A stretch of 21,566 nt of DNA, taken from IMG/VR virus record IMGVR_UViG_3300029319_000595, positions 1-21,566 of that record; one strand, given 5' to 3'. The stretch's first letter is position 1. Each line of letters starts with the position of its first letter. The translations under genes and the position numbers were made by a program. The stretch comes from a virus. Below the pieces are notes generated by a model. The model saw only the letters and a list, made by a program, of their open reading frames with translations. It did no database searches and had not been told where the DNA came from. Positions 2 to 15,869 of this stretch are shown here, in pieces.

Positions 2-100
2 TGCTCCAGCAAGAGTCAAGAGTATTCTCATAGTGAGATTCTGGCGATTCTTAATGCTGATGATGGAGTTTGGTGGAATCCAGAAGAGGATACGCCATAA
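2..100 (+). CDS. C-terminal fragment of an upstream virion protein, possibly lectin-like
   Basis: An open frame enters from the left edge and stops with TAA at 98-100, giving 32 residues. The piece SEILAILNADDGVWW resembles the end of LamG/concanavalin-like phage proteins, and the next gene ends in a comparable TEILNHYKTTK segment, so this is probably the end of a related adhesion protein. The stop overlaps the next ATG by one base (TAATG), the same junction used between the following genes, which supports the frame being real. The start and most of the protein lie outside the window, so the assignment rests on a short tail only. Confidence 0.55.
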   Translation, partial: CSSKSQEYSHSEILAILNADDGVWWNPEEDTP

Positions 101-894
101 TGGGATTAACACACTCTCCTTTAATTCCTACTGATGGGCTTTTATTCGGTGTAGATGCAGCTAATTCTCGCTGTTATCCCGGAACCGGTACGTCAATAGA
201 TGATTTGCTTCTTGTTGCAAGTCCTGTAAATCAACCCGTAAAACTTAGGCCAAACAGCACTAATACAGATAACAATCAACCTCACCGTCCAGTTGCTGGA
301 ACTTTACACAATGGGGTAGGGTTTACGAGCGAGAATGGTGGTGCATTTACATTTGATGGCACTGATGACTATATTGAGTTTATTTCAGAGACACTCAATC
401 CGGGCTTTCCTGCTAGTTTGTTGTGCTGGTTTAAAATTGATCAAAATACATCAGGACAAGGTGTGTTCTCATTGCGTTGGCACGGTAGTAGATATTATGG
501 ATTCTGGTTTAATGTCAATGGTTCAGCAAAATTGTCCATGAACATTGGCGATGGAGGAACTGCTGGAAGTAGTGCTAGAAGAACTGGTCAGCGGGCTGCC
601 GTTAACATGGATACCGGTAGATGGTATCACGGGGCTTTTGTTTGGAACGCTTTAGTTGAAGACATGGTAATGTACGTTGATGGTGAACTTCAAACTTTAA
701 CTTATAGCGGAACAGGAGATAAATTATTTTACGGGGATTCCAGTACCGACCCAAAAACATGGAAGCAAAGAGTAGGTGTGCTTAATGACAAGTATTTACA
801 AGGGTCTGTGGCACAGATTCTTTTTTACGGAAGAGCATTAACACAAACAGAAATTTTAAATCATTATAAAACTACAAAGAGAAGGTTTTCATAA
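100..894 (+). CDS. LamG/concanavalin A-like lectin-fold virion protein
   Basis: 264 residues, probably a tail-associated carbohydrate-binding or adhesion protein. The N-terminus (residues 12-31, GLLFGVDAANSRCYPGTGT) is the cap seen in many marine phage structural proteins that carry a LamG-like jelly roll. The jelly roll follows at about residues 70-250: FTFDGTDDYIEF (83-94), the strand MVMYVDGELQ (189-198) and the closing segment GRALTQTEILNHY (244-256). There is no signal peptide or membrane segment, as expected for a virion part. ATG at 100 is chosen because it overlaps the upstream stop as TAATG; an in-frame TTG at 70 would lie inside the previous gene. The gene ends in another TAATG overlap with the next lectin-like gene, suggesting coupled translation. 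The fold is fairly sure; the ligand is unknown. Confidence 0.75.
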   Translation: MGLTHSPLIPTDGLLFGVDAANSRCYPGTGTSIDDLLLVASPVNQPVKLRPNSTNTDNNQPHRPVAGTLHNGVGFTSENGGAFTFDGTDDYIEFISETLNPGFPASLLCWFKIDQNTSGQGVFSLRWHGSRYYGFWFNVNGSAKLSMNIGDGGTAGSSARRTGQRAAVNMDTGRWYHGAFVWNALVEDMVMYVDGELQTLTYSGTGDKLFYGDSSTDPKTWKQRVGVLNDKYLQGSVAQILFYGRALTQTEILNHYKTTKRRFS

Positions 895-2639
895 TGGGTT
901 GTTCATCTGGACCAAACTTTAATAAAGCATCTCTCGTATACTCTTTGGACGCAACAACTCCAGTAGGATACGACGCCTCCGCGAACACAGTTAGAGATCG
1001 TTGCGGCAGACGCAGAAGAAGAAGAAGACGTAAATCTACTGCTCATAATAGTATTACTCGCAACAGGAACAGAGGTCGCGGTGCGTTCTCCTTAAATGGC
1101 ACTAGCCAATACTTATCTATTCCTATAGATAGTGATGATGATATTTCAGCTTTCACTAAGTTCACTGTATGTGCTTGGATTTACCCAACCACTAGTGCAA
1201 ACTTTTGGATCGTAAGTAAAGGTATCAATGGCGATGATAATGACGACACAGAGTTTGGTGTTTATTTAAATTCTGACGGAAAAGCAGAAGTCCAGATATA
1301 TGATGAAAGTGAAGATAAGTTTACCAAGAGTACCTGTGCAAATGCACTTGCTGCTAATAAGTGGCACTTTGTATCTGCAACATTTGACGGTACAAATCTA
1401 CAGGTTGCTGCTAACATTATAGACAAAGGTGCAAGCCAAGTTAGTACAGTTGTTATTGAAAATACAGATACTCAATTGTATATTGGCAGAAGTCACGGGA
1501 CTGGTGCCACAGACTTTGCTGCTGGCTTTATTGGAATGGTAAAAATATACGACGATAAACTATCAGATAGTGACATATACAATATATACAGATCTAAAAT
1601 TAAAAAGTTTGGTGCAGACCTTGCTACCGCAGTCGCCGGAACTGGTACGGGCGAGGAAGATACTGATGGACTTGGGCCGTTTTTGCAGTATACAGAGGCG
1701 ACTTCTTCTAGTCGGATCGAACTTCAGCTAACTACTTCTACTAATCTAAATATTCAAGTTGATTGGGGCGATGGTAGTTCTATTACAACTATAACTAATC
1801 ACACGGATAGTAATAAAGAACATACTTACTCTAGTGCTGGCGACAAAACTATTAAAGTTTATGGAACGATTGGCAATAATGAGGTATTCGACGGAACCGA
1901 TGTAAAAGCCGTAGACTCAATCGGCACTTGGCTTAGTGGCGGAAGAACTAGTTTTCAAAACTTATTCAGATATAATGATGATATAAATAGTTCAGATATA
2001 GCAAACTGGGATGTTAGTAGTATTACTAATATGAAGCAAACATTTAGAAATTGTGATGCTTTTAATGTAGCTATTGGGTCTTGGGATGTCTCGTCTGTAA
2101 CTGATTTCAATAGTATGTTCCGTAATGCTGACTCCTTTAATCAAGATCTTGGATCTTGGAATGTTGGTGCTGGAACTGACTTTCAATCCATGTTTCGCGA
2201 TATGGCTGCTTTCCAAAACGGTGGCAACGACAATATAAATAACTGGACGTTTAAAAGTACGGGAAGTATAACTATGCGGTATATGTTCCGCAACAATAGT
2301 TTCAATAGAAATATTGGAAGTTGGAACACTAGACGGGTTACTACAATGCGAGATATGTTTCGTGATAATAGCTCTTTTGATCAAGACATTAGCTCTTGGG
2401 ATTTCAGGGGTATTTCAGACGATTCCAACATGAGAGATTTTCTCAAGAACGGAGGGTTGTCTACATCAAACTATGATGCGTTATTAATTAGATGGGCCAG
2501 CCAAGCCAACGAAATGGAAGATGATATGCGTATTGATATGGGTAACAGTCAATACACGGGTGGTAGTTCTGCTGCCAGTGCTAGGTCAACACTTATTAAC
2601 ACTTACGATTGGGAAATTGATGACGGAGGATCTGCATAA
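894..2639 (+). CDS. Multidomain adhesion protein: LamG-like, PKD-like and BspA (DUF285) repeats
   Basis: 581 residues. The N-terminal cap (LVYSLDATTPVGYD, 14-27) parallels that of the preceding gene but is followed by an unusual arginine run (R39-R46, then K47). A LamG-like domain covers about 65-235 (FSLNGTSQYLSI, then KWHFVSATFDGT at 156-167). Residues about 276-325 look like a PKD/Ig-type domain (VDWGDGSS at 289-296, then HTYSSAGDKTIKVYG). Residues about 355-520 hold repeats of the BspA/DUF285 type, with cores such as MFRNADSFNQDLGSWNV and MFRDNSSFDQDISSWDF; each unit is about 25 residues. Such repeats are known from bacterial surface proteins and some phage fibres. Its neighbours suggest a tail fibre or baseplate adhesin for host recognition. 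TAATG overlaps at both ends indicate an operon. The domain calls are fairly sure; the role is inferred. Confidence 0.75.
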   Translation: MGCSSGPNFNKASLVYSLDATTPVGYDASANTVRDRCGRRRRRRRRKSTAHNSITRNRNRGRGAFSLNGTSQYLSIPIDSDDDISAFTKFTVCAWIYPTTSANFWIVSKGINGDDNDDTEFGVYLNSDGKAEVQIYDESEDKFTKSTCANALAANKWHFVSATFDGTNLQVAANIIDKGASQVSTVVIENTDTQLYIGRSHGTGATDFAAGFIGMVKIYDDKLSDSDIYNIYRSKIKKFGADLATAVAGTGTGEEDTDGLGPFLQYTEATSSSRIELQLTTSTNLNIQVDWGDGSSITTITNHTDSNKEHTYSSAGDKTIKVYGTIGNNEVFDGTDVKAVDSIGTWLSGGRTSFQNLFRYNDDINSSDIANWDVSSITNMKQTFRNCDAFNVAIGSWDVSSVTDFNSMFRNADSFNQDLGSWNVGAGTDFQSMFRDMAAFQNGGNDNINNWTFKSTGSITMRYMFRNNSFNRNIGSWNTRRVTTMRDMFRDNSSFDQDISSWDFRGISDDSNMRDFLKNGGLSTSNYDALLIRWASQANEMEDDMRIDMGNSQYTGGSSAASARSTLINTYDWEIDDGGSA

Positions 2640-3280: not shown

Positions 3281-3898
3281 ATGGTACAAGATATTAAAAT
3301 AACACCAGCAACCAACGACCCTCAAATATTATTTCGTGGTAGCGGAACAACTGATACTAGTCTAGAACTTAATGTCATGTCTAGTTATCAGAGTGGAACT
3401 GGCTCTGGTACGGCACTCTTATTCGAGGGTCAAGAGGGACTTTTATTTAGCGTTACCGACAATCTTTCTAGCGGTACACTATTTAGTGTGGCTGATATCA
3501 CGGGACTGCCTACACTAGAAGTCGATGCTAGTGGAGATGTTAAGTTGGCAGAATATGGCAATAGCGTTTCGGTTTATACTGGTTTTAAGACACCGCTCGA
3601 AGACAATACAGATGGGGCAACCGTTACCTTTGACCTAAACGCTGCCAATACGCACACGGTGACATTAGGTGGTAACAGAACTCTAGCTCTTTCAAATGCA
3701 GATGCAGGACAGAAGTTTATTATAAGGCTAGTGCAAGATGGTACAGGTAGCCGAACTGTAACTTGGTTCAGTACGATCAAGTGGGCGGGCGGCGTTACCC
3801 CCACGCTAACCACCACGGCAAATAAGACAGATGTATTTGGATTTATCTGTACTTCTGCCGGAAATTATGATGGTTTTGTTGTGGGGTATAATGTATAA
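3281..3898 (+). CDS. Short tail fibre protein with conserved phage C-terminal domain
   Basis: 205 residues. The first half (about 40-95; LLFEGQEGLLFSVTD, LFSVADITGLPTLEVDASG) matches a beta-solenoid-like segment frequent in marine phage fibres. The second half (about 105-205) looks like a fibre C-terminal domain that recurs in many phages: TVTFDLNAANTHTVTLGGNR, then GQKFIIRLVQDGTGSRTVTW, then WAGGVTPTLTTTANKTDVF. It is likely a receptor-contacting or fibre-tip protein. A GGAG lies about 7 bases before the ATG. The gene ends in a TAATG overlap with the next small gene. The domain match is from memory of the family pattern; the exact position in the virion is unknown. Confidence 0.7.
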   Translation: MVQDIKITPATNDPQILFRGSGTTDTSLELNVMSSYQSGTGSGTALLFEGQEGLLFSVTDNLSSGTLFSVADITGLPTLEVDASGDVKLAEYGNSVSVYTGFKTPLEDNTDGATVTFDLNAANTHTVTLGGNRTLALSNADAGQKFIIRLVQDGTGSRTVTWFSTIKWAGGVTPTLTTTANKTDVFGFICTSAGNYDGFVVGYNV

Positions 3899-4296
3899 TG
3901 TCGAATTCCTTTCAGCCTTACAATACAATCATATCTTCTGCCACCGTTGAATCTGTGACTGGTTCTGGACCTAGTTACACAGTAACGTACTCTACAAACG
4001 TTAGCGACGACACAAAAATAGGAGACAAGGTAATTGTAGAAAAACGCGAGGCTGGCGCTGGAACTGGAAGCACCATACTATCTACCTACACTTACATTGT
4101 CACTGCCGTTGGAAGCCCATTAATGACCATTCCTCCAACCTACGATTTAACCATAAAGTATGAGTACGACACAGCCGGTCTGGGCGATGACTCTCCAGCA
4201 GATTTGTACTCCGGGGGCGGATCTTCTGGTAGCCCTGAGAAGGCACCGCACCTAATTGGAAGACTAACTGCCCCCTTTATTTTATTTGTGGATTGA
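3898..4296 (+). CDS. Small unrecognised phage protein
   Basis: 132 residues, family not recognised. It is rich in Ser, Thr, Gly and Val, with alternating beta-type sequence (SATVESVTGSGPSYTVTYST, then GDKVIVEKREAG), and ends with a Gly/Ser-rich linker (SGGGSSGS) followed by a short hydrophobic tail LTAPFILFVD. The composition suits a small beta-sandwich virion protein or fibre accessory. It starts on the stop of the fibre gene (TAATG) and is the last member of this adhesion block; the following enzyme gene begins 2 bases after its stop, so all are probably co-transcribed. Confidence 0.6.
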   Translation: MSNSFQPYNTIISSATVESVTGSGPSYTVTYSTNVSDDTKIGDKVIVEKREAGAGTGSTILSTYTYIVTAVGSPLMTIPPTYDLTIKYEYDTAGLGDDSPADLYSGGGSSGSPEKAPHLIGRLTAPFILFVD

Positions 4297-4298
4297 TT

Positions 4299-5315
4299 AT
4301 GGAAAAATGCATTTGCGAAAAGCATGGATATTGTAAATATTACAAACAAGAGATGACAGCAAGTCCTCCGAATTGGCAGTGGTGTCAGAACGCTACTGCT
4401 GAAGAAAGAGAAAAGTACAAAACGGACTGTGATAAAAAACATGAGCGTAGACAATCCTATCTTGCTGGGGAATATATTACTAATGCAAAAATGATAGAAG
4501 ACTGTAAAAATTTATTGTTGCCACAAGTACATAATCTTAAACTAAGAGGTGTGCTTGGCGTACCTCGTTCGGGTATGCTACCAGCAAGTATGATTGCTAT
4601 GTGGCTAAATCTACCGCTCTACTATCTAGACGAAAATAATAATGCTAAGATTTTGTCTGGTGCTACCGGCTTTGGTGGAATTAGGATGAAAGACTTTGAC
4701 GATAGAGAGGGTAGAATCTTGGTCGTGGATGATACGATGTATGCTGGTACAGCAATGAAGAACATGAAATCTAGACTACTAGAAGATGTTTATTTTGCTA
4801 CAGTTTATTTTAAACCAGACTGTGAGCAAAAACCAGATTTTTTTGCTAGAGAGCTATCTCCACCGCATTTATTAGAATGGAATCTTTTTAATTGTGCCTA
4901 TATAGAGCAAGCGTTGCTGGACTTTGATGGTATATTCTCTCCAAATGTTCCTGTAGACGTGTGTGAAGATGAACCAAGATACATTGACTTTATTAAGAAT
5001 GTAAAACCATTTCCGCATAGAATACCTAAAACACACTGTGCGGGAATCGTAACGGGAAGATTGGAGAAATATAGAGATATAACAGAAGAATGGTTAGATA
5101 GATACAATGTAAAATATGGTTTTTTAAAAATGTTTCCGACCGAGATGGAAGAAGAAAGAAACAAGAATCACGTAGAAGAAGTTTCTACATTTAAAGCTAA
5201 GATATTCTCTGAGTCTGACGCTCATTTTTTCATAGAAAGCGAAATACCAGAGGCTATTAGGATTAGACAAAAAAGTGGAAAACTCGTTATTTGCCCGGAG
5301 GAGAATTATGGATAA
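4299..5315 (+). CDS. Phosphoribosyltransferase-HAD hydrolase fusion with Cys-rich N-terminus
   Basis: 338 residues in three parts. Residues 4-29 hold a cysteine cluster (C4, C6, C12, C29) that could bind zinc. Residues about 65-175 fit a type I phosphoribosyltransferase: GVLGVPRSGMLPASMIA (84-100), then the PRPP-binding loop ILVVDDTMYAGTAM (140-153) with its two adjacent acidic residues. Residues about 200-335 look like a HAD phosphohydrolase: DFDG at 208-211 (motif I, both aspartates present), TGR at 252-254 (motif II) and a Lys/acidic region at about 299-306. Such a fusion could transfer or release a base on a ribose phosphate and dephosphorylate the product, but the substrate is not visible. 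ATG at 4299 is preferred over an in-frame TTG at 4293 that overlaps the previous gene. The end overlaps the methyltransferase gene by 8 bases. Confidence 0.75.
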   Translation: MEKCICEKHGYCKYYKQEMTASPPNWQWCQNATAEEREKYKTDCDKKHERRQSYLAGEYITNAKMIEDCKNLLLPQVHNLKLRGVLGVPRSGMLPASMIAMWLNLPLYYLDENNNAKILSGATGFGGIRMKDFDDREGRILVVDDTMYAGTAMKNMKSRLLEDVYFATVYFKPDCEQKPDFFARELSPPHLLEWNLFNCAYIEQALLDFDGIFSPNVPVDVCEDEPRYIDFIKNVKPFPHRIPKTHCAGIVTGRLEKYRDITEEWLDRYNVKYGFLKMFPTEMEEERNKNHVEEVSTFKAKIFSESDAHFFIESEIPEAIRIRQKSGKLVICPEENYG

Positions 5316-5868
5316 AATAAAAGAATACGAAACAGTCCATCAAATGTATTTAGATGTACCGAAGGGTGGTGTTGGAGTAGAAATCGGTGTTTGCAAGGGG
5401 TGGAACGCCATCCAATTGTTTCACATTACTAAACCTACTAAATTGCACCTTTGCGACATTTGGAGAGAGAGACACCCCAATGCTTGCTTAATAGAAACCC
5501 CCCATTTATGGGAAGATGACCACAGGGAGCTAGTAGGTAAACTTTTTCAGAGAGAAATAGATTCTGGCGTAGTAGAATTACACAGGGAATACGGTGGTAA
5601 TTTCCTTTTTGGTTTAGAAAATGATTATTTAGACTGGGCTTACATAGACGCTTGTCATGACTATAAATCTGTTTCGATAGAGATTGAGAACGCATTATGG
5701 AAAGTCAAAAAGGGCGGACTAATAATGGGTCATGATTACGTCACAAATGCTCAGGTCTGGAAAGCTGGTGTCATAAGGGCTGTCAATGAGAATATTCAGG
5801 CTGGCAAAATGAAGATGATCGGGATAAGTTTAGAGAGTTACCCTAGCTTTATGTGTGAAGTATTATGA
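5308..5868 (+). CDS. Class I SAM-dependent methyltransferase (Methyltransf_24-like)
   Basis: 186 residues, a compact Rossmann-fold methyltransferase. Motif I is VGVEIGVCKGWNA (22-34), followed by the acidic residue after strand 2 at D50 (LHLCDIW). The strand-4 region is DWAYIDACHDYKSV (109-122) and the later segment is KKGGLIMGHDY (134-144); this ID.cHdY...GG.i.gHDY pattern is typical of the family that methylates small molecules or sugars, including macrocin-type O-methyltransferases. The ATG at 5308 follows a strong Shine-Dalgarno (CGGAGGAG, 5296-5303), better than an upstream in-frame start at 5275 inside the previous gene. The stop overlaps the sulfotransferase ATG as ATGA. DNA methylation is unlikely, since no target-recognition domain or DPPY-type motif is present. 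The substrate is unknown; a sugar or nucleotide derivative is an inference from its neighbours. Confidence 0.8.
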   Translation: MDKIKEYETVHQMYLDVPKGGVGVEIGVCKGWNAIQLFHITKPTKLHLCDIWRERHPNACLIETPHLWEDDHRELVGKLFQREIDSGVVELHREYGGNFLFGLENDYLDWAYIDACHDYKSVSIEIENALWKVKKGGLIMGHDYVTNAQVWKAGVIRAVNENIQAGKMKMIGISLESYPSFMCEVL

Positions 5869-6386
5869 TATATCTACCTGAACGAGCAGTATTTATACAT
5901 ATTCCAAGAACTGGAGGAAATTCTATAAAGAACGCTATTGCATCCACCTGCATTGGAAAAGACATACCAACCGTTGTAAGTACGATGCCCATATACATAA
6001 AAGAGTTTGACAGATGCCAAAGTCACCAAACGGCCTCGATACTAAAGGGGTATATTAGAGAGTGGAATGACATCTATAGATTTGCTGTCCACAGACCAAT
6101 TCAAGAAAGGTTTGAAAGCATGGACAGGTTTATTAAAAAGATAAAAGCGAGACCTAACCACCGGATTCCTGAGCAGCTTAAAGATTTTATGGAAATAGAG
6201 GATCATCTAACTTACTTTAAAGAGGAGTGGTCTGACCACACAACCCAATTTTTCACACAAGGTCTTTATGGTGAAGATTTGGGCGTAGAAGTGTATAATT
6301 ATGAAGACCTACCAAAAAGATGGCATGAAATATGTGATAAATGCCAGATACCTAGATGTGACTTACCCCATTTAAACAAATCATAA
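5865..6386 (+). CDS. Small sulfotransferase family protein
   Basis: 173 residues. The N-terminal segment VFIHIPRTGGNSI (9-21) is the 5'-phosphosulfate-binding loop of PAPS-dependent sulfotransferases (usual form FIHIPKTGGTS; here Arg15 replaces the common Lys). YRFAVHRPIQERFESMDRF (71-89) fits the 3'-phosphate-binding segment (usually VRNPxxRxxSxY), with R77 and S85 in the expected places. The C-terminal LPHLNKS (167-173) and the QFF at 128-130 also fit the Sulfotransfer_2 group that sulfates carbohydrates. The protein is at the short end for the family but keeps both cofactor sites. It has no transmembrane anchor, unlike Golgi relatives. It starts by ATGA overlap with the methyltransferase gene. 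The arginine may weaken or alter catalysis; the substrate is unknown. Confidence 0.8.
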   Translation: MIYLPERAVFIHIPRTGGNSIKNAIASTCIGKDIPTVVSTMPIYIKEFDRCQSHQTASILKGYIREWNDIYRFAVHRPIQERFESMDRFIKKIKARPNHRIPEQLKDFMEIEDHLTYFKEEWSDHTTQFFTQGLYGEDLGVEVYNYEDLPKRWHEICDKCQIPRCDLPHLNKS

Positions 6387-6398
6387 GGAGAATTAAAG

Positions 6399-6701
6399 AT
6401 GGCACAATTTGCAGTTGAAATTGCTGATGCAGACGTTGATAGAGTTTTAGACTCTATAGCAGGAAATTATAAAAGACCAGAACAGGTTGAAAATCCAGAT
6501 TTTAATGATTCTGAACCAGAAAGTGAGACAAATGTTAGACTAATTGACAACCCAGAATCTAAGGCGGTATTCGCAAATAAAATTGTTCGTCAATTTTTGT
6601 CAGAAAATGTTAAAGCATATGAGGTTAAATTGGCAAAAGAGGCTGCTGCTCAAGCTGCTGAAGCTAATTCTGGAGTAACCATTACTGATCCACAGGTTTA
6701 A
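6399..6701 (+). CDS. Small conserved-looking phage protein of unknown function
   Basis: 100 residues, acidic, with an Ala/Lys-rich helical second half. It begins MAQFAVEIADADVDRVLDSI, continues with NPESKAVFANKIVRQFLSENVKAYEVKLAKEAAAQ (in two stretches, about 51-85), and ends SGVTITDPQV. Proteins of this shape occur beside tail fibre genes in aquatic phages, but I cannot assign a function. The long helix could be a coiled coil in a fibre or chaperone role. A strong AAGGAG (6385-6390) precedes the ATG at a spacing of 8 and overlaps the stop of the sulfotransferase gene. The next small gene starts 2 bases after its stop. Confidence 0.7.
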   Translation: MAQFAVEIADADVDRVLDSIAGNYKRPEQVENPDFNDSEPESETNVRLIDNPESKAVFANKIVRQFLSENVKAYEVKLAKEAAAQAAEANSGVTITDPQV

Positions 6702-6703
6702 CA

Positions 6704-6895
6704 ATGATATATGGCTCTTCCGCTTGGTCTGAAACATCTATATCAAGCGTAAAAATACAGGAAACAAGTGGTGAAGAATTGGGGTATATCCTCATAATCG
6801 ACACAAATTTCCCTGCCGCACTATTTGTTTCTCAAAACGATGATTTTAGTTTATCTTTTGTTAGAGAGTTAGAGTTTGAGCTTGATGCAGATTAA
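6704..6895 (+). CDS. Small hypothetical protein
   Basis: 63 residues, strongly acidic at the C-terminus (ELEFELDAD), no family recognised. Its beta-type sequence (VKIQETSGEELGYILIIDTN) and size suit a small virion or assembly accessory. It starts 2 bases after the previous stop with only a weak Shine-Dalgarno (ACAGG inside the previous gene), so translation is probably coupled. Its place in a tight run of same-strand genes is the main support; on sequence alone it would be uncertain. Confidence 0.55.
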   Translation: MIYGSSAWSETSISSVKIQETSGEELGYILIIDTNFPAALFVSQNDDFSLSFVRELEFELDAD

Positions 6896-6939
6896 GGTGT
6901 TAATTTTTTCAATAACAACTAGGCTTGGAGCTTATTATA

Positions 6940-7245
6940 ATGGCTAGTCAAATACATGAAAGTGACATTGGAACCAAACTGGTGATAACCGTAAAAGATA
7001 ACGGTTCAGTTGTAGATATTTCTTCAGCGTCATCTCTGACTATTTTCATAAAAAAACCAAATGGTACAATTTTGACCAGAACTGGGACTTTAGAAACAGA
7101 TGGCACAGACGGTAAAATGTATTACATTGTTGTTGCTGGCGACTTAGATGCCGCCGGGGTTTATAAAATTCAAGGTCGTGTAGTTTTAACTTCAGGCACT
7201 TTTTCTACAAGTACCGCCAATTTTAAAGTCCATTGTAACTTATAG
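6940..7245 (+). CDS. BppU-like N-terminal (Ig-like) baseplate or fibre protein
   Basis: 101 residues. The sequence follows the pattern of the N-terminal domain of phage upper baseplate proteins (BppU/DUF2479): ESDIGTKLVITVKDNGSVVD (7-26) then the strand SLTIFIKKPNGTILTRTGTL (32-51), TDGTDGKMYYIVVAGDLDAAG (two strands, 53-73) and YKIQGRVVLTSGTFSTSTANF (75-95). In those proteins this domain anchors receptor-binding parts to the tail; here it is present alone, without the C-terminal extension. ATG at 6940 follows TTGGAG (6925-6930); an in-frame TTG at 6925 is part of that ribosome site. A 44-base gap before it holds a short T run but no clear terminator. Confidence 0.7.
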   Translation: MASQIHESDIGTKLVITVKDNGSVVDISSASSLTIFIKKPNGTILTRTGTLETDGTDGKMYYIVVAGDLDAAGVYKIQGRVVLTSGTFSTSTANFKVHCNL

Positions 7246-7256
7246 GGGGTTAAATT

Positions 7257-7775
7257 ATGTCTTGGCAAGGTCAAATGGGAACCATCGTCAGATACCTTAT
7301 AGACGATATAGATCCATCAAATTATACATATTCAGATCACAGAATAGAAACAACTGTTCTTGTTGCTGGGCAATTGACCCAGATGAATGTCGATTTTAAC
7401 AAAACATACGATATAAATGTGGAGAACTGCACCCTAGATCCAGATCCAACTGCCGAGGTAGAAGATAAAGCCTTCATAACTTTGATATGCTTACGTGCTG
7501 CGTGTATAATTATAGGGAGTGCAATACGTAGTGAGTCTGGAAATGCCATCTCAATTAAGGATGGACCTTCTGCGATTGACCTTCGTGGCGTGACTCAAAC
7601 CCTAGCGGTTCTTTATAAAGACCTTTGTGAAAAATACGAACAACAATTACTAGAGTATCGGGCTGGAAATAGTATTGGCGGTCAAGCAATTCTTGGTCCT
7701 TACAGTCCGGGTTCAGACTATGTTTCTAGGAATAACTATGGCGGTCACAGAGCCGGTGGATATTTTGAATACTAA
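7257..7775 (+). CDS. Putative head-tail adaptor (neck) protein
   Basis: 172 residues. The N-terminal part (IVRYLIDDIDPSNYTYSDHR, 10-29) and the following helices (ETTVLVAGQLTQMNVDF, 31-47; EVEDKAFITLICLRAACIII, 67-86) have the arrangement of head-tail connector proteins: an N-terminal helical bundle with a YxDxRI turn, then a central loop with conserved SIKDGPSAIDLRG (99-111). The C-terminus (141-172) is Gly, Tyr and Asn-rich and probably flexible. A strong AGGGGG (7244-7249) precedes the start. The assignment rests on overall pattern and the phage context, not on a catalytic motif, so another small virion role is possible. It sits well apart from the other neck genes at 13.8-15.9 kb. Confidence 0.45.
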   Translation: MSWQGQMGTIVRYLIDDIDPSNYTYSDHRIETTVLVAGQLTQMNVDFNKTYDINVENCTLDPDPTAEVEDKAFITLICLRAACIIIGSAIRSESGNAISIKDGPSAIDLRGVTQTLAVLYKDLCEKYEQQLLEYRAGNSIGGQAILGPYSPGSDYVSRNNYGGHRAGGYFEY

Positions 7776-7792
7776 ACAGGAGAGTTAGAAAG

Positions 7793-8788
7793 ATGCCCAA
7801 CCAACTAAATTCAGGTGAATTAATAACTAATATCAGTTCTGAATTAGCAGATAATAATGCTGGTTTGATCTCGGCTTACGATGTCCGTCACAATATGGAA
7901 GATATGGCATTTTCCATCAATAAAATTGTGGCTAGTGGAGATACCGAGGTAGAGTTTCCATTTTTCAATGCTGTAAAGTTTTCTACTGCTGATGCAACCT
8001 CAAACAGTGCGGGTGCTGATCATGGAGACCTTATCGTAGAATCTGGACTCTTTTTTCCAAACGCAGACGATACGGCCAAGCGAACCAAGAGGCAGACTGA
8101 GCCTTGGCTTGGTGATACAGGTATTAATCACGATAATCTTCAGGGTCTTGGAAACGATACCCACCTTCAATACTACAATAGGGATGGTTCTCGCCCTCTA
8201 CAGGGTAATATGTCCACCAATGATGGATCAACAGAGAACTGGATTAACTGTTCTGGTATTAACGATGTTGGGTTTAAGTTTGTTCAAACCAACCCTACCG
8301 CTACAGAACAAGAGATTTATGTTTCTGGAACGATGCGGTGGGCGAATACAGATAATTCAGTTTTAGAAAACGCAAAAGGTGTTGCCAAGGCTTGGGCATA
8401 TTTCAGTGCTAGTGGTGCTGGAAATGTGCCGGAAATTTATTCTTGGCACAATATTGAGAGTATTGCTAGAAAGGGAGAAGCTGGTAAGCTAAAGATTACT
8501 TTCCCATCTGGAACATTCGAAAACAACAATTTTGTTGCCATCGGAACTTCTAACGGTACTACTTCAGATTCGAACCTTCTGGATATGGACGTGAATACCG
8601 TTGCTTGTGTTGCTAGGTCTGGTGACGACGGAACCATGCTAAGATCCGTCACTTATGTAATCCAAGACGAAGCCGGTCAATATGTTGATGGTAAAGTCTG
8701 TAGCTTTGTTGCTTACGGGTATAGTCCTAATGAAACATCTGGTACTGCCCCAACTATGATAGATGAAAGTGCATCACCAACGTTCTAA
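7793..8788 (+). CDS. Tail fibre or adhesin protein
   Basis: 331 residues. Residues 112-140 (NHDNLQGLGNDTHLQYYNRD then GSRPLQGNM) are a clear version of the fibre motif HxxLxGLxxDDHxQYxxxDGSRxLxGN, common in tail fibres of many phages. The region before it (1-110) is probably the attachment part; the region after (150-331) is beta-rich with GTFENNNFVAIGTSNGTTSD and ends in a flexible tail SPNETSGTAPTMIDESASPTF. The role is likely receptor binding or a fibre shaft element. AGGAGAG (7778-7784) lies 8 bases before the ATG. The next gene, also a fibre, follows after 21 bases. Whether the two assemble in one fibre is unknown. Confidence 0.75.
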   Translation: MPNQLNSGELITNISSELADNNAGLISAYDVRHNMEDMAFSINKIVASGDTEVEFPFFNAVKFSTADATSNSAGADHGDLIVESGLFFPNADDTAKRTKRQTEPWLGDTGINHDNLQGLGNDTHLQYYNRDGSRPLQGNMSTNDGSTENWINCSGINDVGFKFVQTNPTATEQEIYVSGTMRWANTDNSVLENAKGVAKAWAYFSASGAGNVPEIYSWHNIESIARKGEAGKLKITFPSGTFENNNFVAIGTSNGTTSDSNLLDMDVNTVACVARSGDDGTMLRSVTYVIQDEAGQYVDGKVCSFVAYGYSPNETSGTAPTMIDESASPTF

Positions 8789-8809
8789 TTAAATTTAAGG
8801 GAAGTTTAG

Positions 8810-11800
8810 ATGTCAAATTTTTTCCTAGCAGATAGAATTAAAGAAACGTCCAGAACGGAGGGGATAGGTAGTATCGTCCTCGACGGTAAGGTTTCCGGGT
8901 TTAGTTCTTTTGCCGACTTTTACGCATCTGGAGATGTTGTATTTTATGCAATTACAGACAACATCAACTACGAAATAGGCTCTGGTGAGTATCGTCAGGT
9001 TGGTTCTAGCAGGGTTCTTACCAGAAATCCTATTAGAAGTTCTCAAATTCAGGTCGGACCTTATTATGTAGAGGGTACTAGTAATAGCGGTCCAACAGAC
9101 GGTCAGAACGGTTTTTTCTATCCTGTTTGGTTAAATAAATCTGCTGCTCTTAGCGGTATTGGTTTTGATGATGGACCGTTTACCGCTGTTAGTGGATTGA
9201 CATTTGACGAGCATCCCGGACAAACATTTTATAGAATTACTGAGCGTGCTAATCCAGTAGATACTGTCGGTATAAGCGGCGGAAATTACGCCACATCTGG
9301 TCAACCAATTAATTTTGGTGGCGGCTTAAAAGAAGTATTTGTAACTTACCCCGGAAAGACCGCTGTTTATAATGGCGTTGGACTTGACACCGATGTAAAA
9401 GAACCAAAACACAGCGGTATTGCCTTCTGGAAAAATGAACAAATTCTTAATTATGACTCTGAACTTGTTTGGGACGACACTAACGGTTTCTTAGGTGTTA
9501 ATCAACCAAACCCTGAGTATCCAATTGATGTAGGTGGTTTAGTTGCGGACTCGATTGTTAGAGCTTCTGGATTTGTAGACGGTGGATCTGGCATCGCCTT
9601 CTCTGGCGGTCAATTGACTGATACGCTTCTTACTGCATCTGGTGGTACACAGCTAGAGCCATTCTTGAGAAATCGCAAGGGCACATCAGCTAATGGTGTT
9701 ATTGAACTTAGCGGTATTGTTGATCAGATTATTGATTTCTCTGACCAGTCAGCAGCTACCGTGTTCGCTGGTCCTGCTAGTGGTGCCTGTGATCCATGCC
9801 CAGATGGACCTCCCACATTTAGACAATTAGTCGCAAGCGATTTACCTACATCTGAGCTTCAGTCTGACTTTGGTTTTGTTATTCAGCAAGACGCAGGTCT
9901 TGATGCTGGAACTCAAAACACAACGGCTACACCATTCGCTGCTGGAATGGTAGCTCTTTATTCAACTAGCGGCAATATTACTTATGATAGTGGTATTTTC
10001 TACGACGCAACAAATAATAGGCTTGCGGTTGGTAAAAACGCATCTGTAGACGGTGCTGTATATACCCTAGATGTAGGTGGAGAAGGCACTCTCAATGCTG
10101 CATCTGGTTACTTTAAACAATTAATTTTTGACAGAAACGTAATTAGGGTTGGTGATAATACTGGCGAATATGCAGACCAGACAAACCTATTTGTTGTAAA
10201 TATTGGCGGTGGTGCTGGTGCTAGTTCTAGTGGACTGCAAGACGTTGTTATAATCGGTAGTGGTGCTGGTAATACCCTCGAAGATGCCGACAGAATTGTT
10301 GCTGTTGGTGGTTCTGCTGGTGCATCTACTAGATATGCTGAAGACTTGGTTGGAGTTGGCTATAAGACATTACAGCTTGGTAGTGGACTTTATAACGTTG
10401 TTTCTCTAGGCAGCAAGTCAGTGTTTAACGCAGATGACCTTACAGATGTAGTTGCGGTTGGAAAAAATGCCGCAGCACACGCTGCTGGAAGCGACAGCCT
10501 TGTTGTAATTGGTGAAGAGGCTGGTTCTGGACTTAATTCTTCTTCAGCGTTTATTGCAATGGGTAAGAATGTTGCACAAGACGCTTCTGGTGTAACCATG
10601 TCTGTTGCACTGGGATCAGATTCACTAAAAGGTTCTAGTGGAGTATTAGATTCTATTTTTGTTGGTGAGCAATCATCAAGCGGTTCTTTTGATCTGTCTC
10701 AGGTTATAGCGATTGGAAACAGTCAAATATTAGTTGAAAGTACAGGTATTTCAAAGAGTACATTTATTGGTCCCGGTGCCGGTAGATACACAGAAAGTTT
10801 AAATAATGTAATTGCTATCGGTCAGAACGCTGCACTTTCGGGTCTTGAACTAGAACGCACAATTGCTGTTGGTGGACTAGCAGCTAGTAATGCAAGTGGT
10901 AATTTCAATACCTACATTGGTCAAGATGCCGGTATAGGTGTTTCTGGAAATAACAATATAGAAATTGTCTCATCCGGTACGAATGTTAGTTTCTTAACTC
11001 ATGAAGCTAGTAACAAAGTAAATATTGCTGAAATCATCGTGGGCGATCAATCTTCTCATCGGGTCGCCGTTGGAAAACCTGATGACGCTTCACCAAATGG
11101 CACGTTTGTTGTTAGACCATTTGATGCTGACGAAGCTGCATTTATTATTCATCATCAAGGCTCTGGATCTGCAACGCCTTACATGGTCTTACAGTCGGGC
11201 GATGGAACCTCTATTTACCACGTTACCAATAGTGGCGATGTCATTTCGAGTGGATTTATGCATCCAAGTGGCGGCCTTAAATTAGATCCACATCTCCCAG
11301 ACAGCATCACTAATAAACTATACAACGAGGGTGGTACTCTCAAATGGAATGGAACTGCGGTCGCTGTTGGTGGTGGATTTACCAGTTTTGATTTACGTGC
11401 TCAAATTGATAATACTGCTGATTCTGGAGTTGAGATCACGACCGGTCAAACGATCTTATTCAGTGGTATTCATGTAGATACACAGATTGATTCTGGCAAT
11501 CGTCAGATTATAGTCGATGCAGGAACCTTATCTGGTGTTCTTCAAAATCAAATCACAAACTCTCTGTACACCTTTGATGCTGTAGCTAGTGGTGTTGGAT
11601 CTAACAATAATTCACCCAAACAAATGGATGACGGTGCCGTACTAGCTATGTCTGGTGTTAGCGGTGTTACCATAGACTTTGACAATCAAACAGATGGAAC
11701 AAACAGTAGTGGTATTTTTGTTATCGGTTACAATCCTGATAGTGATTATACATTTAATATGACCGCCGGTACTACTGCTGATGATATTATTTCTAACGGT

Positions 11801-13531
11801 CAAACAGTTACGATTAGCGGTGTTTCTGGCGTTACGGTAGACTACAATCCTGACAATCAATTCTTCACAATCGGCCCAAATGAACTTTCTGGTGTTCTTT
11901 CCGACACTATAGATAATTCGGGCAATTATCTTCTTGGTCAAATTCAAGAAAATACTACCAGTGGAATTGCCATTAGTGGTGTTGCTGAATGGGCTTCTGG
12001 TGAGTTTGCTAGGGCTGGTCTCACGCAAACCCTTGGAACAAGCGGCCTTATCACGCAAGATGGCTTCCATATCATGGACCCCAACGGGTCTGGTAACTTG
12101 AAGCATTTGAATTTCCCCAATAATGGTGGTAGAATTATAATTCGTGCTGATGAAGAGAGCCTTGGTTCTTTTCAGGGTGGTGTAGGTTCGATTATTATTG
12201 GTTCCGGTGCCGGTACAAGTGCCGCCAATACTGTTGATGACTACGTTACTGCAATTGGTCCTGAAGCCTTTGGTGGGAATCAACAGGGTAGTCGAAGTAG
12301 TATGGTTATCCTTGGTCATAATGCCTTCGTTGCTGAACCGGTATTTGACACCGATTACAGTATTGCTGTAGGTTGGCAGTCTCTTGCCTATTGTTCAGGT
12401 CAGTACAATGTTGCTATAGGGTATCAGGCTGGACAGCAGGCTTCATCAACTACCGCAACTCGTACTTCTGAAAAATCCGTAGATATTGGTTACGGAGCGG
12501 GCTATGGACAACATTACAGTTCGGGAGAGATGATTGATATTGGCATGAACGCTGGTTATAACCAACAATATAGCTATCGCAACATAAACATTGGTAGACG
12601 GGCCGGAGATTCTTGTGAGTACCATACTAGCTCTATATCTTTAGGTGAAAATGCTGGTTTCAATTCCGACAATATGGCATACTGTATAAACCTTGGTTAT
12701 AGTGCCGGAAGTTCTTCTGTACATGCTTACGACACTATTTCTATCGGTAGATCCACTGGGGATAGCACTGATTTTCTCGAAAAATGTGTGTTTATTGGTG
12801 ACAATGCAGGCACATCGGCATCTGGAGATAGCACATCAAATTTAGCTACTAACATTGTAGCCATCGGAACCAACGCAGGAAGACAGACCCACCTGTGTGA
12901 CAATTCGATATTTATCGGCCCATATGCTGGAGACCAGTGTAAGGGAATGAGAAATTCTATCTCGCTATCTAACCGTAGTGCTGCTGCAAGTAGGGATTTC
13001 CTTTTTGCTGATGACCACGATGTTTCACTGTTGGATATCGGATTTGGAATTCAGGGCAGTATTCAAGATGTTGGTGCTCATATTCATGTCGGTCTTCAGT
13101 TAGACAATTATGGAACAGCTAACGGAAGAGATATTGATGATATTAGAGGTACATCCGCACTAACATTGACTCCTGTAGGCGAAAGCGAACATGCATTAAA
13201 GTTAAATCTCCACCCAGAAGATGGAAACATTGGAGATTCAGACCAACTAAACAGTTTGCTTAGAACTGAGTATAGACCGCTGGGTGCTGGAGCAACTACA
13301 AAATACTCAGCAACAAATGAAATCATCAATAAATTTGGTATGCTTAGGATACCAAAAGCATTCACTTCGACTGGAACCGGAAGTTCTACACAACTTGTAG
13401 ACGGACTATCGAATGAAATACCAAGGGAAGATGGTACAATAGCGATGTATGCTTCTACCACACTCGGAACTGGAATAGCGTTTGTCCAAAATAATGTTTG
13501 GTATAAGATTGATTCGACAACAACCTTTTAA
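8810..13531 (+). CDS. Giant tail fibre with YadA-head-like repeat blocks
   Basis: 1573 residues, the largest gene seen. The N-terminus (2-60; ADRIKETSRTEGIGSIVLDG then FYAITDNINYEIGSGEYRQV) matches the virion-attachment domain of many phage fibres. CDPC (327-330) and PTFRQLVASDLP (335-346) are another common fibre segment. Two blocks of short repeats of the form AIGxxAG or VGxxAA lie at about 475-712 and 1127-1379, resembling the left-handed beta-roll of YadA-type trimeric adhesins. Between them are three copies of a segment built on GQTxxxSGVSGVTxDY (about 880-1041). The C-terminus (about 1430-1573) ends in a trimer-tip-like region (EDGTIAMYASTT, then NNVWYKIDSTTTF). The likely role is a long trimeric host-recognition fibre. 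AAGGGAAG (8797-8804) is the ribosome site. There is no signal peptide, so it is not a cell-surface autotransporter. Confidence 0.8.
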   Translation: MSNFFLADRIKETSRTEGIGSIVLDGKVSGFSSFADFYASGDVVFYAITDNINYEIGSGEYRQVGSSRVLTRNPIRSSQIQVGPYYVEGTSNSGPTDGQNGFFYPVWLNKSAALSGIGFDDGPFTAVSGLTFDEHPGQTFYRITERANPVDTVGISGGNYATSGQPINFGGGLKEVFVTYPGKTAVYNGVGLDTDVKEPKHSGIAFWKNEQILNYDSELVWDDTNGFLGVNQPNPEYPIDVGGLVADSIVRASGFVDGGSGIAFSGGQLTDTLLTASGGTQLEPFLRNRKGTSANGVIELSGIVDQIIDFSDQSAATVFAGPASGACDPCPDGPPTFRQLVASDLPTSELQSDFGFVIQQDAGLDAGTQNTTATPFAAGMVALYSTSGNITYDSGIFYDATNNRLAVGKNASVDGAVYTLDVGGEGTLNAASGYFKQLIFDRNVIRVGDNTGEYADQTNLFVVNIGGGAGASSSGLQDVVIIGSGAGNTLEDADRIVAVGGSAGASTRYAEDLVGVGYKTLQLGSGLYNVVSLGSKSVFNADDLTDVVAVGKNAAAHAAGSDSLVVIGEEAGSGLNSSSAFIAMGKNVAQDASGVTMSVALGSDSLKGSSGVLDSIFVGEQSSSGSFDLSQVIAIGNSQILVESTGISKSTFIGPGAGRYTESLNNVIAIGQNAALSGLELERTIAVGGLAASNASGNFNTYIGQDAGIGVSGNNNIEIVSSGTNVSFLTHEASNKVNIAEIIVGDQSSHRVAVGKPDDASPNGTFVVRPFDADEAAFIIHHQGSGSATPYMVLQSGDGTSIYHVTNSGDVISSGFMHPSGGLKLDPHLPDSITNKLYNEGGTLKWNGTAVAVGGGFTSFDLRAQIDNTADSGVEITTGQTILFSGIHVDTQIDSGNRQIIVDAGTLSGVLQNQITNSLYTFDAVASGVGSNNNSPKQMDDGAVLAMSGVSGVTIDFDNQTDGTNSSGIFVIGYNPDSDYTFNMTAGTTADDIISNGQTVTISGVSGVTVDYNPDNQFFTIGPNELSGVLSDTIDNSGNYLLGQIQENTTSGIAISGVAEWASGEFARAGLTQTLGTSGLITQDGFHIMDPNGSGNLKHLNFPNNGGRIIIRADEESLGSFQGGVGSIIIGSGAGTSAANTVDDYVTAIGPEAFGGNQQGSRSSMVILGHNAFVAEPVFDTDYSIAVGWQSLAYCSGQYNVAIGYQAGQQASSTTATRTSEKSVDIGYGAGYGQHYSSGEMIDIGMNAGYNQQYSYRNINIGRRAGDSCEYHTSSISLGENAGFNSDNMAYCINLGYSAGSSSVHAYDTISIGRSTGDSTDFLEKCVFIGDNAGTSASGDSTSNLATNIVAIGTNAGRQTHLCDNSIFIGPYAGDQCKGMRNSISLSNRSAAASRDFLFADDHDVSLLDIGFGIQGSIQDVGAHIHVGLQLDNYGTANGRDIDDIRGTSALTLTPVGESEHALKLNLHPEDGNIGDSDQLNSLLRTEYRPLGAGATTKYSATNEIINKFGMLRIPKAFTSTGTGSSTQLVDGLSNEIPREDGTIAMYASTTLGTGIAFVQNNVWYKIDSTTTF

Positions 13532-13568
13532 TTTTTTAGACAGTTAAATATAAACTTGGAGAGATAAA

Positions 13569-13769
13569 ATGCCAGCACAAGATGCAGTAAGACCTGTAAC
13601 GACCGCAGCAGCGGGAATACAGAATGGCTCTTTAGTCACTCTAGTGTTTGAATCTGGAGATAATTCACAATCTCGTGCTCCAGATGTAAACCAATTCGTA
13701 GCTTCTGGCGATATGAACGTCAGAACAAGCGGCAGGTTTGACGAACACTATGGTGGTGGTGCCTCCTAA
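13569..13769 (+). CDS. Small hypothetical phage protein
   Basis: 66 residues (MPAQDAVRPVTTAAAG at the start, YGGGAS at the end), not recognised. It is beta-type with a flexible Gly-rich end and is likely a small virion or capsid decoration element; this is a guess from size, position and composition. A good TTGGAGAG (13556-13563) precedes the ATG by about 5 bases, and the next gene follows after 12 bases with its own GGAG. The 37-base gap upstream begins with a T run after the giant fibre gene but shows no stem. Confidence 0.6.
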   Translation: MPAQDAVRPVTTAAAGIQNGSLVTLVFESGDNSQSRAPDVNQFVASGDMNVRTSGRFDEHYGGGAS

Positions 13770-13781
13770 TGGAGTTTTAAG

Positions 13782-14267
13782 ATGCCCATTAATATCCCAG
13801 AAAGCGTATTTACTAAATACTACGATATCATTGACTCAACAATCAATGACATCTTTGGTATTGACTGCCAATTGGTATTTACAGAAAAGGTTGAAGAGAT
13901 ATCCGACACCTTTGACAATATACCACATAACAAGTCTGTAAATGCTCATAGAAGACGGTCTGATAACTATAAGCGTGGTGAAAAAACATTCAAGGAAGTC
14001 GAAAAGAAAGAGACTATTAGATTAAAAGTCTACTGGGATAGTAAAAGTTGGTACAAAGCTGGTGGAGATATTGTAGTTCCTGATAACAGTATACAAACAA
14101 TATTTTTTGCTTCTGATTTGGATAAGGTTATGAGGGCAAAATATCTACTTGTACATGATAATATTGAGGAACTAAGACATTTTAAGTTTACTAAATTTGG
14201 AGAGCCTTTCCCAATGGGGTTAAGGCAAAATCGTTACTTCGGCTGTTTTTGGCAGAGAGCATCATGA
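13782..14267 (+). CDS. Putative neck or head-closure protein
   Basis: 161 residues, from the start of the head-tail joining module. It begins with a helical segment (SVFTKYYDIIDSTINDIFGI) and then has beta strands with the charged stretch KETIRLKVYWDSKSWYK and VPDNSIQTIFFASDLDKV, ending RQNRYFGCFWQRAS. Small proteins of mixed alpha-beta type in this position, before a gp10-like gene and the tail terminator, are usually head-closure or stopper proteins. That role follows from gene order and I see no diagnostic motif. Its stop overlaps the next ATG as ATGA. Confidence 0.5.
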   Translation: MPINIPESVFTKYYDIIDSTINDIFGIDCQLVFTEKVEEISDTFDNIPHNKSVNAHRRRSDNYKRGEKTFKEVEKKETIRLKVYWDSKSWYKAGGDIVVPDNSIQTIFFASDLDKVMRAKYLLVHDNIEELRHFKFTKFGEPFPMGLRQNRYFGCFWQRAS

Positions 14268-14896
14268 CTTTAACTGTAAAATTGATTGACTCTAAAGCTA
14301 AGATTGCAAAGGCGATGAACGAGGCTCTTTCGGTAGAGTTAAACAAGAATTTAAAAAAGAATACAAAGAGGGCTCAAGATCAGGTTAAGTCATTTATTCC
14401 GCAGTGGATAAGGGAACAGCCAGAAGTTCAGAGTATTTTAGATCAAGGTGTTTTCGGAAGTCTAAATGCACAGTTTGGGTTTATAGCTGGAACCGCATCC
14501 GAAGCAGTTGAAGCTATAGTGTCGGCAGTTTCCGATTCCATAACTGTAGAGTTTGAAACAGTAAAAGGTAACTTATCTGGTGGTATTGTATTTTACCTGC
14601 AACCAGACAATTTTGCAAATATTTTATCTCTTCCAGAGGCTTTTATTCCAGCATTATCTGGTTCATTGCCTTGGTTGGAGTGGTTATTAACAAGAGGGGC
14701 TACGACTATAGTTTCCGGCTATTCGTATGCTCCAGACAATTCTGGTAGATCTGGTGGTGGAACAATGAGGCTTGGAAAGGCTTGGCGAGTCCCACCTCAG
14801 TTTGCTGGGACAACAGAAGACAATTTTATATCAAGAGCATTAGAGGGTAGAGAGAAAGAACTTTCGTCCATACTTAGGGGAGCGTTAGATGCCTAA
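14264..14896 (+). CDS. Putative tail-completion (HK97 gp10-like) protein
   Basis: 210 residues. The N-terminal half is helical and basic (LNKNLKKNTKRAQDQVKSFI, 26-45, then IREQPEVQSILDQG), as in gp10-like neck proteins that start with a long helix. The second half contains LPWLEWLLTRGATTIVSGYS and GGTMRLGKAW, a pattern also seen in these proteins near their C-terminal strands. It lies between a putative closure protein and a putative terminator, the classic place for such a gene. ATG at 14264 overlaps the previous stop as ATGA; an in-frame TTG at 14249 is less likely. Its end overlaps the next gene by 8 bases. Confidence 0.55.
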   Translation: MTLTVKLIDSKAKIAKAMNEALSVELNKNLKKNTKRAQDQVKSFIPQWIREQPEVQSILDQGVFGSLNAQFGFIAGTASEAVEAIVSAVSDSITVEFETVKGNLSGGIVFYLQPDNFANILSLPEAFIPALSGSLPWLEWLLTRGATTIVSGYSYAPDNSGRSGGGTMRLGKAWRVPPQFAGTTEDNFISRALEGREKELSSILRGALDA

Positions 14897-15869
14897 TTAT
14901 TATGGATTGAAAGGCTTTGATAGTATACAAGATTACAGCCTAAACAATAATATTCAAGATGCGTTAGTCGAATATTTTGATTGGGCACTTCTTGAGAAAG
15001 GAAATTATTTTAATGTGACCAAGGGTGAGCTTGCCCCCAACGGGCAGGATATGAGTCGATTGAGACTTAGCTCAAATGATTCATTTGCCTCTGGTCAAGT
15101 ATGGGAAGGTTTTCGTCAGAATTGGGTTTGGCAAAGTGGTGTTTCAGGTGTGAACCTAGATGCTCCTATTGTCGGTACAAATGTAAATTCTCCGGGCATT
15201 TCCGGCGTTTACATTAATGACCAGTTTGAACCAACTTCTGGAGTAGGACAGTATTCACATTATATTGACTATTTTAACGGTAGAGTTGTTTTTGATTCGC
15301 CTATTCCAACGGGATCTGTTGTCCAAGCGGAGTATTCTTACAAATTCATCAATGTCGTTTATGCAAATAATGTACCTTGGCTCAGGGAGATACAGTCAGA
15401 TACCTTGCAACCAACTAGCAATTTTTATGATGTTAGCAAAGGATCTTGGGATATACCCCCAGAATCCAGAATACAATTACCAGCCATAGCTTTTGAAATA
15501 GTACCAGTGAGGCGGTTTAAAGGTTATCAACTTGGTGGCGGTCAATGGGTTTATACTGATATTATTGCTCACTGCATAGCAGAGGACGATCAGACAAGAA
15601 ATATGCTTGTGGATATAGTTTCTCTGCAAAATGACAAAAGTATTCAAATAATTGACAGTGACAAGCTACATACAGAGGATAAATATCCATTAAGTAATTA
15701 CGGAAGTCCAAATCCAAGTGCTTTACTTTATCCAGAAATTATAGAAAGTTATAATGGAGGTAATTTCCGCATGGAGAACACTATCGTAGAAAATATGGAT
15801 ATGACAACTCCTGATTTGTTTGGAGGGATTGTCAGGTTTACCACTTTAGGAATAAAATCAAATATCTAG
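14889..15869 (+). CDS. Putative tail terminator or tail-joining protein
   Basis: 326 residues, longer than a typical single-domain terminator (about 130-180). The first half includes a recurring phage beta segment: GVYINDQFEPTSGVGQYSHY (106-125) then NGRVVFDSPIPTGSVVQAEY (130-149), also found in structural proteins of large phages. The second half (about 195-290; AIAFEIVPVRRFKGYQLGG then TDIIAHCIAEDDQTRNMLVD) has the strand-helix order of tail terminators, where a variable loop faces the tube. It lies directly before the likely tube gene, where a terminator is expected. It could instead be a fused adaptor-terminator. A GGGGAG lies in the overlap with the previous gene. Confidence 0.5.
   Translation: MPNYYGLKGFDSIQDYSLNNNIQDALVEYFDWALLEKGNYFNVTKGELAPNGQDMSRLRLSSNDSFASGQVWEGFRQNWVWQSGVSGVNLDAPIVGTNVNSPGISGVYINDQFEPTSGVGQYSHYIDYFNGRVVFDSPIPTGSVVQAEYSYKFINVVYANNVPWLREIQSDTLQPTSNFYDVSKGSWDIPPESRIQLPAIAFEIVPVRRFKGYQLGGGQWVYTDIIAHCIAEDDQTRNMLVDIVSLQNDKSIQIIDSDKLHTEDKYPLSNYGSPNPSALLYPEIIESYNGGNFRMENTIVENMDMTTPDLFGGIVRFTTLGIKSNI

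Follow-up and report, generated by a model that had tools for sequence, protein, structure and literature searches.

A PRTase-HAD, methyltransferase and sulfotransferase gene cassette beside the fibre tip gene of an environmental virus, with a probable role in decorating the fibre or its receptor

Results

Gene organisation of the locus

The window analysed here is the complete 21,566-base virus record IMGVR_UViG_3300029319_000595 of IMG/VR. A sequence-only reading of this DNA had described three overlapping enzyme genes at 4299–6386, and we recovered all the open reading frames, their starts and both overlaps just as it gave them; each frame runs from an ATG at the first position in Table 1 to a stop codon ending at the last. 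The PRTase-HAD and methyltransferase (MT) genes overlap by 8 bases (5308–5315), with GGAGGAG immediately 5' of the MT start, and the MT and sulfotransferase-like (ST) genes overlap by ATGA (5865–5868).

On the 5' side of the trio lie two LamG/ConA-lectin proteins (window 70–2639), the second with BspA-like DUF285 repeats, followed by a short tail-fibre-like protein; on the 3' side are a BppU_N baseplate-type protein and then large fibre-like proteins. The earlier placement of the trio between adhesion genes and fibre or neck genes was supported for adhesion and fibre by the LamG/ConA, BspA-like, BppU_N and fibre-like matches, whereas the downstream proteins had no match in PHROG and hence gave no backing to the label 'neck'. 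The large fibres of the window (8810–9040) and of locus L002 (2768–3000) share at the N-terminus a domain some 75 aa long (FLADRIKET...), which is probably their attachment end.

Table 1. Coordinates of the cassette and adjoining features in the window
Feature	Position	Strand	Description
Fibre-tip-like protein, 205 aa	3281..3898	+	PHROG 9017 tail fiber, 2.2e-12
'up132', short conserved protein	3898..4296	+	Motif GDDSPxDLxxGxGSSGSPxxAxH
PRTase-HAD fusion	4299..5315	+	Cys motif (C4, C6, C12, C29), type I PRTase domain, PNKP-like HAD phosphatase domain
Class I SAM-dependent methyltransferase (MT)	5308..5868	+	Methyltransf_24 (Pfam match), O-methyltransferase type
Sulfotransferase-like protein (ST)	5865..6386	+	P-loop FIHIPRTGGNS, second motif HRPxxxRxxS; PHROG 3347
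Exchangeable block, right edge	6386..6388		L131 identity begins 6388; L002 block stops 6378

Domains and conserved residues of the PRTase-HAD protein

The PRTase domain matched Pribosyltran slightly below the Pfam cut-off (E 9.6e-6) and was nearest to xanthine/guanine (6-oxopurine) PRTases, by sequence and by fold. The HAD domain is of the PNKP type (PHROG 415, 1.2e-4), and among PDB chains its profile was nearest to Pnkp1. The model of the whole protein had a pLDDT of 81 and a pTM of 0.68; when viral structures were searched, the top matches were PRTase-only or PNKP-only proteins.

Conservation was examined in 37 diverse PRTase-HAD members. All of them (37/37) kept the PRPP/ribose residues DD, T and G, together with R-S-G in the pyrophosphate loop; the D, D, T and K of the HAD domain were likewise invariant, and a PHLLEWN hood motif was nearly so. 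The columns corresponding to Asp92 and Lys115 of XGPRT were assigned through an HMM alignment of the PRTase profile to XGPRT; in the numbering and roles that we assume for this enzyme, Asp92 is catalytic and contacts purine N7, and Lys115 contacts purine O6. In the Asp92 column D was found in 0/37 members, Y, M, F and others standing in its place, and K occupied the Lys115 column in 3/37. Because the PRPP and HAD residues are invariant and the Asp and Lys columns are not conserved, PRPP chemistry is kept, and purine recognition appears to have been lost. We did not place the protein among the 6-oxopurine PRTases, which were judged by this conserved purine Asp and Lys, nor among the PNKP enzymes, where a phosphatase and a kinase are both needed: unlike PNKP, PRTase-HAD has a phosphatase-like domain only and the kinase domain is absent.

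The methyltransferase and the sulfotransferase

MT matched Methyltransf_24 above the curated cut-off (E 5.4e-14; 53.4 bits, cut-off 26.3), and ST matched the sulfotransferase family PHROG 3347 (1.1e-11). The ST of the window had no match in Pfam, and of 15 members of its family one matched a Pfam sulfotransferase model, at E 0.01, with none above the cut-off. The ST profile was aligned by hhalign with relatives at 99.2%, some of which match Sulfotransfer_2, and the family alignment contains the two PAPS-sulfotransferase motifs of Table 1, the 5'-PSB-like P-loop and the 3'-phosphate motif. PDB matches of the ST profile (OCRL-1, ubiquitin) were discarded as spurious, and the AlphaFold model of ST, with a pLDDT of 51, was too poor for a fold search. 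A membrane segment was found in none of the three proteins, and the trio cassette contains neither a flippase nor a lipid-carrier enzyme.

Recurrence of the trio and its partner enzymes

A search of relatives for the same trio near fibre genes, as the sequence-only reading had proposed, showed that the trio recurs. PRTase-HAD occurs together with MT and a sulfotransferase at 16 non-redundant IMG/VR loci, and at 10 of them, the window included, the sulfotransferase is of the window's ST family and the order is the same. In L002 (IMGVR_3300032087_005453), which has this gene order, the protein identities are 95, 84 and 72% for PRTase-HAD, MT and ST, respectively; more diverged trios in the same order are present in L005, L007, L011 and L037. 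The ST gene is doubled in L012, L019 and L020, and a radical-SAM gene is inserted into the trio in L008. A second sulfotransferase family is found at the ST position in L003, L035, L043 and L049, and a third is placed before MT in L059 and L061; the neighbours of PRTase-HAD span four sulfotransferase subfamilies. The trio was found on two kinds of tail backbone with its tight overlaps conserved. The sheath of L011 showed no more than that some of the relatives have a contractile-tail backbone.

Other partner sets were also seen. PRTase-HAD is accompanied by GT8-like, sulfotransferase and pyruvyl transferase genes in L038, L039, L041 and L051, by sulfotransferase, pyruvyl transferase and radical-SAM genes in L014, L028, L029, L048 and L058, and by glycosyltransferase-like and cytidylyltransferase genes in L004 and L025. 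When 66 PRTase-HADs were placed on a tree, those carrying the N-terminal Cys motif formed a clade of 32 rows, each of which has one or more glycan, sulfo or methyl enzymes adjoining or fused to PRTase-HAD (31 rows were scored by script and L056, with GT8-like and sulfotransferase genes just upstream, was added). Homologues occurring only singly and scattered, the case that was to refute a functional unit, are thus not what this clade shows. Along the tree the presence of MT switches at least 8 times and the sulfotransferase class 13 times.

In L061 and L064 a single protein is composed of the Cys motif, a GT8-like domain, PRTase and HAD, and in L044 the order is Cys motif, PRTase, HAD, GT8-like; L056 has a separate protein made of a Cys motif and a GT8-like domain. 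The GT8-like domains in the fusions are below the curated Pfam cut-off (E 1.7e-4 to 1.8e-3), and the label is a superfamily call. A GT8-like domain is fused to PRTase-HAD in L044, L061 and L064, and glycosyltransferase genes adjoin it elsewhere; the window's cassette has no dedicated glycosyltransferase.

In L088 (5344–12628) a long glycan island lies 3' of PRTase-HAD, with an MT, a cytidylyltransferase of the CTP_transf_3 type, a glycosyltransferase-like gene, a radical-SAM-like gene and a second MT. A second clade, which lacks the Cys motif, stands alone where a tail module ends, following what is probably a tape-measure gene (L076, 334–6831, and about 15 similar loci); no partner-enzyme match was obtained in the neighbourhood of these loci.

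Exchange of the cassette with the fibre tip

The C-terminal half of the 205-aa fibre-tip protein corresponds to the distal part of the L002 fibre, a protein of 1617 aa, with 87.5% identity to residues 1514–1617. At the nucleotide level, L002 is 79.6% identical to the window over 3605–6378 and about 67% beyond it. L131, whose fibre is different and which lacks the trio, is 91% identical over 6388–15769 and unrelated before 6388. From these identity patterns we conclude that up132 and the trio were exchanged together with the distal fibre as one block, whose right edge in the alignments coincides with the 3' end of ST.

In most loci the up132 gene immediately precedes PRTase-HAD. Three more copies were seen: one in L115, which lacks PRTase-HAD, one in L125, where the contig end cuts it off, and a second up132-like domain with no PRTase-HAD nearby in L126 (4725–5321), a phage that also has an up132/PRTase-HAD cassette. 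L115 and L126 show that up132 can occur apart from the cassette; we infer that it is a candidate fibre component or acceptor.

When the non-redundant loci that encode the downstream 172-aa protein were compared, partner enzymes were present in 23/23 with PRTase-HAD versus 4/44 without it, a contrast that is inflated by the enzyme profiles having been built from PRTase-HAD neighbours. The slot can also hold other sugar-enzyme sets without PRTase-HAD (L149, 985–7073; L204, 498–4863; L202; L208), comprising sulfotransferase, GT34, WavE-like, radical SAM, ATP-grasp, GT2/GT92 and cytidylyltransferase.

Distribution of the family

When PRTase-HAD and ST were compared by tblastn with 50,697 phage records, no match was obtained and no cultured-phage homologue was found; MT gave two weak matches in the same records. 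A literature search for the combination of PRTase-HAD, MT and ST turned up no paper describing it.

The PRTase-HAD family was detected in 5 of 245 sampled Planctomycetota genomes. In Thalassoglobus neptunius (L107, 1216–8798) the gene has phage portal and capsid genes around it, and the locus is therefore probably a prophage. In the planctomycete contigs L105 (11–6795) and L104 (3734–7765), PRTase-HAD adjoins GT2/GT4 and epimerase genes, or a GT41 gene. The cassette of phage L005 was also seen on a 152-kb contig of a SAR202 MAG (L100), which may be a host link or a possible mis-binning; this contig was insufficient to fix SAR202 as the host.

Discussion

Proposed function of the cassette

The cassette probably builds a small decoration of ribose, methyl and sulfate, placed either on the fibre or on its receptor. 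The best reading, which we put forward tentatively, is that the trio serves glycan-type decoration and goes with the fibre tip. The PRTase domain would move ribose-5-phosphate from host PRPP onto a non-purine acceptor, the candidates being a sugar and a residue in either the fibre tip or up132, and the fused HAD would strip the 5-phosphate to leave a ribofuranosyl group. The Methyltransf_24 enzyme would then O-methylate and ST would sulfate that group, using host SAM and PAPS. All these steps would be cytosolic and take place during virion assembly, and the outcome would be a negatively charged, variable decoration on the tip. Gene order, domain identities, the conserved catalytic residues, the loss of purine-recognition residues, the link with glycan enzymes and the co-exchange with the tip are read from sequence, whereas the acceptor, the order of the steps, the product and the target are inferred. 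A search of 20 related virus records, which may be incomplete, revealed neither an APS kinase nor a PRPP synthase, so PAPS and PRPP would be supplied by the host.

The sequence-only reading had suggested that the product could be a nucleotide-sugar-type or glycan group, on the fibres or on the host surface. The GT8-like, pyruvyl, cytidylyl and sulfotransferase partners give good support to glycan-type chemistry, while a purely nucleotide product is less likely given that the purine residues are not conserved. Counting against a tip-decorating cassette, the PRTase is closest to 6-oxopurine PRTases and not to known gPRT or CriT, the HAD is closest to Pnkp1, the window's own cassette includes no dedicated glycosyltransferase, and the sulfotransferase call is weak in Pfam.

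The fibre is favoured as the target because the enzymes are soluble, come without a flippase and are encoded inside the structural gene block; co-transfer with the fibre tip fits either the fibre or the host surface. In the main rival reading, the cassette alters a receptor on the host surface (LPS, capsule or a glycan of the wall) and is matched to the tip in such a way that progeny or superinfecting phage no longer bind to infected cells; this would also account for the joint exchange with the tip. Pyruvyl transferase, cytidylyltransferase, WavE-like and GT8-like enzymes are of the surface-polysaccharide type, gPRT-PRP enzymes are known in O-antigen and capsule synthesis, and the cassette does travel with the tip; we nevertheless regard an action on the host receptor as rather unlikely, as the overlapping frames sit within a structural gene block and the trio has no flippase, lipid-carrier enzyme or membrane segment.

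It is improbable that PRTase-HAD makes a modified nucleoside, joining a base to PRPP and dephosphorylating the nucleotide before methylation or sulfation, for instance as an anti-defence or signalling molecule. The closest solved folds are xanthine/guanine PRTases and the HAD resembles polynucleotide-kinase phosphatases, but the family has not conserved the catalytic Asp and the O6-binding Lys that purine PRTases use, and PRTase-HAD is fused or linked to glycosyltransferases. We would give just as little weight to a loose set of morons, gained independently and tolerated at a fibre/baseplate hotspot with no common pathway: the contents of the slot do differ between phages, some without PRTase-HAD (L149, L202, L204, L208), and the partners change often on the tree (13 sulfotransferase-class and 8 MT-presence changes), yet PRTase-HAD stays constant while its partners vary inside one chemical theme, and the trio keeps its tight overlaps on two kinds of tail backbone. 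Repair of RNA or other nucleic acids, with the PNKP-like phosphatase and MT acting on RNA ends, is very improbable; the PHROG labels (polynucleotide kinase, DNA methyltransferase) point that way, but kinase and ligase domains are absent, sulfotransferase and GT8-like partners do not fit, and MT matches Methyltransf_24.

A broader proposal can be built on the tip-decorating cassette: that a virus-borne family of PRPP-dependent transferases on a purine-PRTase fold, HAD-fused and with purine recognition lost, ribosylates fibre tips and, paired with exchangeable methyl, sulfo, pyruvyl and glycosyl finishing enzymes, forms a swappable system of decoration linked to the fibre. We consider this conceivable but doubtful. 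If it is true, tail fibres of environmental phages bear enzyme-made ribosyl, methyl and sulfate groups chosen along with their tip, there is variation in host range or shielding that is invisible from protein sequence alone, and PRPP-based glycosylation has an additional enzyme family. Phage sulfotransferases, whose function was called unclear in PMC10580990, would also gain a testable role.

Comparison with known systems

PRTase-HAD shares with XGPRT (Gpt) the fold, the PRPP loop and the pyrophosphate loop, and differs from it in the loss of the purine-contacting Asp and Lys, in the PHLLEWN hood and in the HAD fusion. In bacterial Ribf transferases a gPRT domain uses PRPP and a HAD phosphatase then acts (Kelly et al. 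2022, 2024; PMC11127046). Like gPRT-PRP, in which the two domains often share a protein, the window protein joins a PRPP-using PRTase-type domain with intact catalytic residues to a HAD in one polypeptide and is cytosolic, and its relatives are associated with glycosyltransferases; unlike gPRT-PRP, the window's cassette is virus-borne in a fibre module, and its PRTase is XGPRT-like with a DDT...G loop. With the domain profiles, no PDB chain of a characterised gPRT/PRP or CriT/CrpP was matched at E up to 1, and none was among the 50 best folds. By sequence, PRTase-HAD would thus stand outside the known gPRT/PRP family and at most work like a member of it. The cassette looks like a version of that scheme carried by a different PRTase branch, with methylation and sulfation as finishing steps.

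The Hib capsule polymerase Bcs3 has CriT/CrpP modules in which PRPP donates the ribose and a HAD step then removes the phosphate (PMC10299916), and by analogy the same sequence of ribose donation and dephosphorylation is proposed for the window's PRTase-HAD. CriT has D680/E818 in place of the DD pair, whereas the window's PRTase keeps DD. In Che8-type mycobacteriophages, virion glycosylation was shown experimentally on capsid proteins and attributed to glycosyltransferases (Freeman et al. 2023, as cited in PMC11256854). The window likewise has phage-encoded sugar enzymes, which would decorate the virion; PMC11256854 reports no PRTase-HAD or sulfotransferase. The sulfotransferases of marine phages belong to the Sulfotransfer_3 family, were described without a cassette and were called unclear in function by their authors (PMC10580990); the window's ST resembles them as a PAPS-type gene of an environmental phage and belongs to a different family.
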